Positions 24,906-26,705 of a stretch of DNA of 64,000 nucleotides are shown one piece after another (positions within the stretch are counted from its first letter, which is position 1; each line of letters opens with the position of its first letter). A program made the position numbers and the translations under genes. Below the pieces are notes generated by a model. The model was not told where the DNA came from. It ran no database searches and was given only the letters and a program-made list of their open reading frames with translations. Source of the DNA: Pedobacter aquae (GTDB lineage Bacteria > Bacteroidota > Bacteroidia > Sphingobacteriales > Sphingobacteriaceae); assembly GCF_008195825.1 (NCBI RefSeq), contig NZ_CP043329.1, positions 2,170,001 to 2,234,000 of the forward strand. Direction: 5' to 3'.

Positions 24906-26705
24906 ATGGAGAACTTTATAGTATCGGCTAGAAAATACAGACCTGTAACATTTGAAAGTGTTGTGGGGCAGCTGCATATCACCAATACTTTAAAGAACGC
25001 TATCAAAAACAACCAGCTTGCGCAAGCATTTTTGTTTTGCGGACCAAGAGGTGTAGGTAAAACAACTTGCGCCAGAATTTTAGCTAAAACCATCAACTGC
25101 TTGGATTTAACTCCAACAGGTGAAGCTTGTGGCACTTGTGCGTCTTGTATTTCTTTCCAAAATGGTAACTCTTTTAATTTTCATGAGCTAGATGCAGCAT
25201 CAAACAATTCTGTTGATGATATCAGAAATTTAATAGACCAAGTAAGAATACCTCCACAAGCCGGAAAATATAAAGTTTATATCATAGATGAGGTTCACAT
25301 GCTTTCTCAAAGTGCTTTTAATGCCTTTTTGAAAACTTTAGAAGAACCACCTTCTTACGCTATTTTCATCTTAGCAACAACAGAAAAGCACAAAATATTA
25401 CCAACCATATTATCGCGTTGTCAGATATTCGACTTTAACAGGATAAAGGTTGAAGATATGGCTAAGCATTTGGCTAAAATTGCTACCAGAGAAGAGATTG
25501 CTTATGACCAAGATGGCTTACACCTGATTGCCCAAAAAGCAGATGGTGGTTTAAGAGACGCCTTATCTATGTTTGACCAAATTGTTAGTTTTTCTAACAG
25601 ACAGGTTAATTATCAAGCTGTTATTGATAACCTTAATATTCTTGATTACGATTATTATTTTAAGGTGACCGAGTTTTTAATGGCACAAAACACGCCAGCC
25701 GCTTTACTTTTGTTTGATGAGATTTTAAACAATGGTTTTGATGGAAATAACTTTATCACTGGCTTAGCATCGCACTTTAGAAATATACTGGTTTGTAAAG
25801 ACGCCGCTACCGTTCAATTATTAGAGGTTAGTGAGAATATTAAACAAAAATATTTGGAGCAAGCTAAATTAGCTTCAGCTTCTTTTTTAATAAGCGCTTT
25901 AAATATTGCTAACCAATGCGATTTAAATTATAAAATCAGTAAAAACCAACGCTTACAAGTTGAACTTACGCTGATTAAGATAAGCCATATTAGCCAAGCG
26001 GTAAGCTTAAGTCAAAATCCTAATGTTCAGCAAATGGCTGAGCAACTAAAAAAAAAACCTGAAAATTTAGCAATCCCTCAAGCTAGCATAAGCCCTGCTT
26101 TACCCAAACAGGAAGTTGTGGAAAAGGCAGTTCCTACTCTTCAGGAAGTAGAAAAAGTTATAGCTCCTGCTGCTGCACCACAGCCAGAAGCACCGGTTGC
26201 AGAAATTAATATCAACCCAAAAAATCTTATTCCTAAACTAGGCAATACTCTAATTCCTAATTTAAAGAATCCTACAGCTATCAAAACCAAAGAGCAGCTG
26301 GAAGACACGATAGATTACCTTACCGGTGATGCTAAGGATGATTTTACCACAGAGCAATTTATTGAGGCTTGGGGAACCTTCTCGTTTAAAGCTAAAGCTG
26401 ATGGAAAAATGGGCTTAGCTACTTTAATGATGAATTATACGCCCAAATTGAAAGATGGCTATCAAATAGAATTAGAGGTTGAGAATAAATTGCAAGCCAA
26501 CGAGTTGGTTAATGAGCGTATAGATGTTTTAAATTATCTGCGTAAGCAATTGAATAATTTCTCTATTACTTTAGAACCTGTGATTAACGAGAAACAGGAA
26601 GAACGTAAATTATATACCAGTAGAGATAAATACCAACATCTGGTTGAAAAAAACCCTAAACTAGAAGACTTTAGAAAAACTTTCAACCTAGATATTGATT
26701 TCTAG
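24906..26705 (+). CDS. dnaX: DNA polymerase III subunit gamma/tau
   Basis: The 599-aa protein has the clamp-loader AAA+ core: Walker A GPRGVGKTT (46-54), a Cys4 zinc module (about 69-81, with CGTCASC), Walker B IIDEVHMLS, sensor 1 LATTE and the SRC arginine-finger motif. Core domains I-III end near residue 365. Then comes a Pro/Ala/Glu linker (about 385-440) and a tau-type C-terminal domain. The linker starts with QLKKKP, encoded across an A10 run (26048-26057). Slippage there would end translation at once and give a gamma-like product. It loads the beta clamp at the replication fork. The start is fixed by the family N-terminus (MENFIVSARKYRPVTFESVVGQ). Confidence 0.96.
   Translation: MENFIVSARKYRPVTFESVVGQLHITNTLKNAIKNNQLAQAFLFCGPRGVGKTTCARILAKTINCLDLTPTGEACGTCASCISFQNGNSFNFHELDAASNNSVDDIRNLIDQVRIPPQAGKYKVYIIDEVHMLSQSAFNAFLKTLEEPPSYAIFILATTEKHKILPTILSRCQIFDFNRIKVEDMAKHLAKIATREEIAYDQDGLHLIAQKADGGLRDALSMFDQIVSFSNRQVNYQAVIDNLNILDYDYYFKVTEFLMAQNTPAALLLFDEILNNGFDGNNFITGLASHFRNILVCKDAATVQLLEVSENIKQKYLEQAKLASASFLISALNIANQCDLNYKISKNQRLQVELTLIKISHISQAVSLSQNPNVQQMAEQLKKKPENLAIPQASISPALPKQEVVEKAVPTLQEVEKVIAPAAAPQPEAPVAEININPKNLIPKLGNTLIPNLKNPTAIKTKEQLEDTIDYLTGDAKDDFTTEQFIEAWGTFSFKAKADGKMGLATLMMNYTPKLKDGYQIELEVENKLQANELVNERIDVLNYLRKQLNNFSITLEPVINEKQEERKLYTSRDKYQHLVEKNPKLEDFRKTFNLDIDF
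26048..26057 (+). promoter_or_regulatory. A10 slippery run in dnaX, candidate recoding or transcriptional slippage site
   Basis: In frame, CTA AAA AAA AAA CCT encodes L381-K-K-K-P. With one extra A, or a -1 ribosomal shift, the frame reads K-T and then TGA. With one A less it reads K-N-L-K-I and then TAG. Both alternatives stop within 15 bases of the run, giving a protein of about 385 residues ending just after the AAA+ core, as gamma does in E. coli and Thermus. Confidence 0.6.

Follow-up and report, generated by a model that had tools for sequence, protein, structure and literature searches.

The window, a 64,000-nt stretch of the Pedobacter aquae genome, contained a dnaX gene on the forward strand (24906-26705; 599 codons plus stop), and its product was identified as DnaX by the NCBIfam profile PRK14971 (843 bits, cut-off 685). 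A run of ten adenines (A10) extended from the third base of codon 381 to the end of codon 384 (26048-26057, + strand; codon context CTA AAA AAA AAA CCT GAA), a candidate slip site that was kept in relatives. A preliminary description of this DNA had placed the run at codons 381-384 and had stated that both shifted frames stop early, and direct reading of the + strand confirmed both statements. With one extra A, or with a -1 ribosomal shift, the sequence read K-K-K-T and then the -1 frame stop TGA (26060-26062, +), which corresponds to a product ending in QLKKKT (385 aa, 43.1 kDa). With one A fewer, it read K-K-N-L-K-I and then the +1 frame stop TAG (26068-26070, +), which corresponds to a product ending in QLKKNLKI (387 aa, 43.4 kDa). 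Full-length tau from the same gene was 599 aa (67.4 kDa). The mass of approximately 42 kDa estimated earlier for the short DnaX was close to the two computed values.

The match of the window DnaX to the core profile TIGR02397 ended at residue 359. In the predicted structure (mean pLDDT 81), the core of which resembled E. coli clamp-loader chains in a structure match, the last core helix comprised residues 372-381, and pLDDT was less than 50 nearly throughout residues 383-468. The latter segment was a predicted disordered linker (26052-26309, +), and residues 470-599 formed a predicted folded C-terminal part that is missing in the short form (26313-26702, +). According to these models, the A-run lies at the end of the clamp-loader core and the start of the disordered linker, which agrees with the border proposed in the preliminary description, and a slip by one A in either direction is predicted to retain the core and to lose both the linker and the C-terminal part.

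The run was the sole A10 of the window (dinucleotide shuffles averaged 7.5), and the whole genome contained 15 such runs. Four of them were on the sense strand inside open frames longer than 300 codons, namely, the run in dnaX and three others in genes that, by eye, we take to be mfd, a restriction-methylase-like gene, and a glycosyltransferase-like gene (A10 in the first codons). In the presumed mfd gene (G000:C1:2828349-2828358, L045, outside the window), A10 was within a KKK motif and a -1 frame stop followed directly. An A10 in a long frame (G000:C1:1014546-1014555, L036, also outside the window) was in what appeared, by eye, to be a type I restriction methylase joined to its specificity part.

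Within the genus, the dnaX site was held by 17 of the 18 genomes searched (15 with A10 and two with A11), and one genome (G012) gave a weak match only, of a paralogue-like kind. Of the two A11 genes, that of G009 was in frame and that of G006 was out of frame. A lack of the run or of the downstream stops in close relatives had been named as a possible disproof of slippage; when it was looked for, these 17 genomes were found to keep the site. The mfd run was equally kept in the genus (A10 in 14 of 17, A9 in three); therefore, genus-level conservation alone proves little, and we dropped it as sufficient proof.

The comparison beyond the genus comprised 60 more genes of the family, hand-chosen with no more than six per genus plus oddities; a class sample of 80 fetched out of 146 genomes with a match, with every family represented by at least one gene except f13 (a fragment) and f22 (contig-cut); a phylum sample of 30 best matches plus 40 chosen ones; and, among named genomes, the best 80 of 592 relatives, of which the closest was Pedobacter puniceum (98% over the core). 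An order-level search returned solely genomes from the window's own family. Among 190 distinct dnaX genes representing 57 coded families of the class, 180 had a run of A9 to A13 in the 200 nt after a conserved core motif (14 A9, 152 A10, 12 A11, 1 A12, and 1 A13), and the remaining 10 genes had A7 at most. The run was present in all 110 genes of the window's family and in 70 of 80 genes of the other families; seven sampled families of the class were without it. Elsewhere in the same dnaX genes, 2 of 1322 other 200-nt segments reached A9. The longest run found, A13 in frame, was in a genome approximately 76% complete (L085, G025). In another genome (G017, L020/L024), dnaX was broken near codon 464, off the A-run, which may be an assembly error.

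The wider set contained 327 rows, with identical core proteins, rows with a stop in the core, and rows with less than 300 aa of core excluded; L328 and five phylum loci (L265, L281, L283, L284, and L288) were without a usable anchor. The run and a readable frame were present in 272 rows, five rows were unclassified, and 50 rows had no run, including L213, which was scored as run-less though its contig ends early. Runs were found in 59 of 77 coded families, and outside the class there was no run in 24 of 53 coded rows. Exactly ten adenines were present in 214 of the 272 run-bearing rows. Named genomes with the run were Pedobacter, Mucilaginibacter, Sphingobacterium, Rufibacter, Hymenobacter, Dyadobacter, Chitinophaga, and Dysgonomonas; those without it were Draconibacterium and Aquirufa, together with three of four Bacteroides-titled records; A11 was present in dnaX of the fourth record, which is a metagenome assembly. 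The earlier suggestion that this lineage may use slippage at dnaX is thus supported by conservation at the levels of genus and family, across most of the class, and in part of the phylum. The site nevertheless appears to be dispensable in some lineages (50 of 322 classified rows without the run). Natural losses, with no A9 or longer run after the core, were observed in Bacteroidaceae (L340, L345, L348, and L357) and in Draconibacterium (L336 and L351).

The run started in all three codon phases among the 272 rows, and encoded 25 different tetrapeptides; its distance from the core motif took 62 different values. Because the amino acids, the distance, and the codon phase all vary, the run itself appears to be under selection; what selection keeps in dnaX would be the A-run and not the peptide. 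The opposite explanation is that lysines are selected as a basic protein patch and that the A-run is a by-product of a preference for AAA codons. At least two lysines were encoded at the run in each of the 272 rows, and AAA represented 70% of core lysine codons (3881 of 5506), as this explanation expects, but a fixed patch is difficult to reconcile with a variable phase and with peptides such as LKKK, EKKN, and KKKT, or with the frequency of stops in the two other frames, which was above the same-protein null described below. The class-level mfd control (the 30 top matches among 95 matching genomes) also argues against it: the KKK of mfd is a protein motif that many class genes retain, yet 27 of the 30 genes were without A9, in many cases through AAG, and the three genes with A9 or longer were all from the window's own family. 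We consider selection for a basic patch very improbable.

Among genes that encode tau in a single frame (n = 214), closure within five codons was found for the -1 frame in 208 and for the +1 frame in 180. Both non-tau frames closed within five codons in 174 (81%). The corresponding share was 23.5% for synonymous versions encoding an unchanged protein and 8-13% at five control positions within these genes. Neither the codon-permutation null nor the synonymous null accounts for kinship, which was partly corrected by a repeat with one locus per coded family (n = 38; -1 closed in 37, +1 closed in 28, and both closed in 27). For a -1 ribosomal shift, one closed frame is enough; two are required if the polymerase inserts or omits bases. 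Closure of two frames was counted in favor of polymerase slippage.

A reversed arrangement, in which the DNA frame has a stop shortly past the run and the rest of tau is encoded in another frame, was found in 58 of the 272 run-bearing rows, a share inflated in the class sample because second picks leaned to short frames. By hand count, approximately 38 of 146 class genomes had a frame shorter than 450 aa that was not evidently cut. Tau was in the -1 frame in 54 of the reversed rows and in the +1 frame in four (L021, L201, L225, and L292). When tau was in -1 (n = 54), 94% of the rows had a stop within five codons in the zero frame, and 85% had one in the +1 frame. Whichever frame yields tau, it seems that the other two usually end at once. 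The minimum number of switches between arrangements on a FastTree core-protein tree was 37 (25 for A10-only rows), and 20 label shuffles gave 37-42; the recurrence of both arrangements is compatible with a site at which a large fraction of the mRNAs may be shifted in any case. In one genus of the window's family (g11), six of six fetched dnaX genes had a stop directly at the run. Genomes of 1.3-2.3 Mb in the same family (L086-L091 of g11 and L122 of g23) had a dnaX reading VKKK-stop at the run, with tau in the -1 frame wherever the contig was long enough to show it.

Homopolymers mutate and mis-assemble, and some reversed genes were one A off their relatives (L021, L102, and L106) and could be homopolymer assembly errors. 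A more general explanation of this type, in which the site is a contingency locus for replication slippage (phase variation) or an assembly artefact, is scarcely credible. Separate assemblies supplied the 272 rows, of which 214 had A10, and the reversed genes with tau in -1 closed the zero and +1 frames at the high rates given above. In addition, on/off switching is implausible for a replication gene that is taken to be essential.

An RNA hairpin was predicted 3 nt before the run of the window (26024-26044, +), with 26024-26031 pairing with 26037-26044. Of 1000 synonymous versions, 2.2% equalled this hairpin; within the genus, 12 of 16 rows were at or under 5% of their synonymous versions. In an alignment of 13 chosen genus sequences, with L015 (run one longer) and look-alikes left out, 95% of pair cells formed, versus at most 49% when the pairing was slid. 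Changes on both sides of a pair were found in the genus at one pair only and were equalled by 193 of 500 shuffles; covariation support for the hairpin is modest. For the full set of 272 rows, the 38-nt segment preceding the run had a mean z of -0.63 (se 0.08) relative to synonymous recodings, and 22% of rows were in their own most stable 5%. In four control segments 90-450 nt further upstream, mean z was -0.16 to +0.06 and approximately 9% of rows were in the best 5%; a control segment 45 nt upstream likewise showed a raised signal (z = -0.41, 17%). When each family was represented by one locus, 10 of 59 were in the best 5% (three expected; three to five in control segments). A first, coarser upstream test of 90 rows, which covered the 55 nt up to a point 5 nt before the run, gave a weak signal (z = -0.25). 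The hairpin appears clear in the window's genus, and beyond the genus the signal is modest. In Rufibacter latericius (L317), a ten-pair hairpin abutted A10. A search for a known RNA family at the dnaX site gave three weak matches, all far under the gathering score and none covering the run.

The available text of two papers (PMC5009743, PMC3711429) describes two products of E. coli dnaX made by -1 ribosomal frameshifting. As in E. coli, two products, predicted in our case, would end near the same protein boundary in the window gene, and there is one tRNA-Lys anticodon; unlike in E. coli, there is no A_AAA_AAG, Shine-Dalgarno-like motif, or 3' stem-loop, and both other frames are closed. The E. 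coli heptamer A_AAA_AAG was not found in the window, which reads A_AAA_AAA at the site, and it was present in 50 of 272 run-bearing rows (A_AAA_AAT or A_AAA_AAC in 42). No Shine-Dalgarno-like motif (AGGA, GGAG, or GAGG) was found in the 20 nt before the window's run, and such motifs preceded the run in 13% of the 272 rows (1-10% in other sequence windows). No stem-loop was detected just downstream of the window's run (z = 0.59 and 0.23); among the 272 rows, mean z was 0.06 for the first 36 nt downstream and -0.36 for the next 36 nt. These comparisons suggest that ribosomal signals of the E. coli type are mostly absent. The genome had two tRNA-Lys genes with anticodon UUU and none with CUU, although ARAGORN made no call on one weak match of 46. 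Because UUU was the sole tRNA-Lys anticodon found, the reasoning from tRNAs that favors polymerase slippage in Thermus cannot be extended to this genome, and ribosomal slipping on A_AAA_AAA would be possible.

We therefore weighed whether gamma could be made as in E. coli, by -1 programmed frameshifting or by ribosomes sliding on the A-run. The presence of A_AAA_AAA together with the single UUU anticodon is compatible with this explanation, and so are the 54 of 58 reversed genes in which tau requires exactly the -1 frame and the -1 stop of the other genes, which is nearer and more constant (208 of 214). The bias of the reversed genes toward -1 and the nearer -1 stop could, however, be due to an added A just as well as to a -1 ribosomal shift. 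E. coli ribosomes have been found to slide on iterated AAA and to end at out-of-frame stops (available part of PMC4363877). Against a ribosomal slip, A_AAA_AAG was found in 50 of 272 rows and A_AAA_AAT or A_AAA_AAC in 42, the downstream stem-loop was absent, and the window had no Shine-Dalgarno-like motif before the run. Seven adenines would be enough for a ribosome, yet run lengths peaked at ten (214 of 272). Closure of the +1 frame (180 of 214) is unneeded for a -1 shift, though sliding could populate +1, and the structure is upstream, where it is known to aid polymerase slippage. We regard a ribosomal origin of the short form as rather unlikely.

We infer that slippage occurs at the site, that the polymerase and not the ribosome is responsible, and that the cell uses the short form. 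With a probability of approximately 80%, the A10 of dnaX is a selected, programmed slip site at which RNA polymerase slippage yields mRNAs for tau and for a gamma-like form of approximately 43 kDa. The RNA-DNA hybrid of the polymerase is 9-10 bp according to the accessible part of PMC5009743, and the peak of run lengths at ten, about the length of this hybrid, was counted toward polymerase slippage. RNA polymerase would slip on an A-run that fills the hybrid, helped in the window's genus by an RNA hairpin able to form just upstream, and the mRNA pool would carry ten adenines plus or minus a few. Messages in the original frame would be translated into tau (599 aa), and shifted messages would reach a stop within five codons, giving a gamma-like subunit of approximately 43 kDa without the linker and the C-terminal part.

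Transcriptional slippage in Thermus thermophilus dnaX was reportedly described by Larsen in 2000. It is also described in PMC1088944, and the Thermus gene has been described with nearby stops in both nonzero frames (PMC5009743). The window gene and Thermus dnaX are alike in having a single tau frame, a run of at least nine adenines, stops in both other frames, and an expected shorter clamp-loader form. They differ in the position of the run, which is approximately 64% through the gene in the window and has been described as seven-eighths in Thermus, and the window has A10, a hairpin before the run, and one tRNA-Lys anticodon, whereas Thermus has two anticodons. Of the features of the Thermus type, an A-run of at least nine on the coding strand and a stop in both nonzero frames were found in the window; mixed-length mRNA at the run and two protein forms at about 1:1 are further features of that type. 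Antonov 2013, in the part available (PMC3711429), lists 17 two-ORF dnaX genes in which tau needs recoding, nine of them with A10, proposes polymerase realignment, and names three Chlorobi species with shorter runs. The window gene differs from these in having tau in one frame of 599 codons, and 58 of its relatives have the two-ORF form; Bacteroidota may already be among the nine A10 genes. Slippage in dnaX is thus already known from Thermus and has been proposed for those nine genes, and the window gene fits the Thermus type as far as sequence features can indicate.

A hairpin 5' of the slip motif is a known stimulator of slippage in the Roseiflexus IS630 element (PMC5009743, available part), and IS1447 (A9) slips both ways, at approximately 16% each, with a hairpin predicted beside the run (PMC6211511, available part). 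The window shares with these elements a hairpin directly 5' of the slip motif; unlike them, it concerns a chromosomal replication gene, and its hairpin would be a putative stimulator. According to the accessible part of a 2012 review (PMC3290774), most bacteria beyond enterobacteria and Thermus have no dnaX frameshift signature and may make no gamma. The literature searched, with few subscription papers and no supplements, contained no account of the site in Pedobacter or across Bacteroidota and none of the two-frame closure rule in Bacteroidota or of a dnaX hairpin.

It is fairly likely that both clamp-loader subunits are made by polymerase stutter at a poly-A run of approximately ten in most Bacteroidia and partly also in other classes of the phylum, with assistance from a hairpin in some lineages. 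The polymerase would then spread the messages over the frames, so that the arrangement could flip frequently between tau first and gamma first, the sole rule being that one frame leads to tau and two are stopped. If this is true, then dnaX in genomes with the reversed arrangement may be misread as truncated or frameshifted though intact, and the site could be used to report on polymerase slippage that a hairpin assists in a chromosomal gene. Gamma would be made in much of a large phylum, and this would offer many natural replicates for the debate over whether gamma matters, together with natural losses (e.g., some Bacteroides) that would be useful for asking whether gamma is dispensable.
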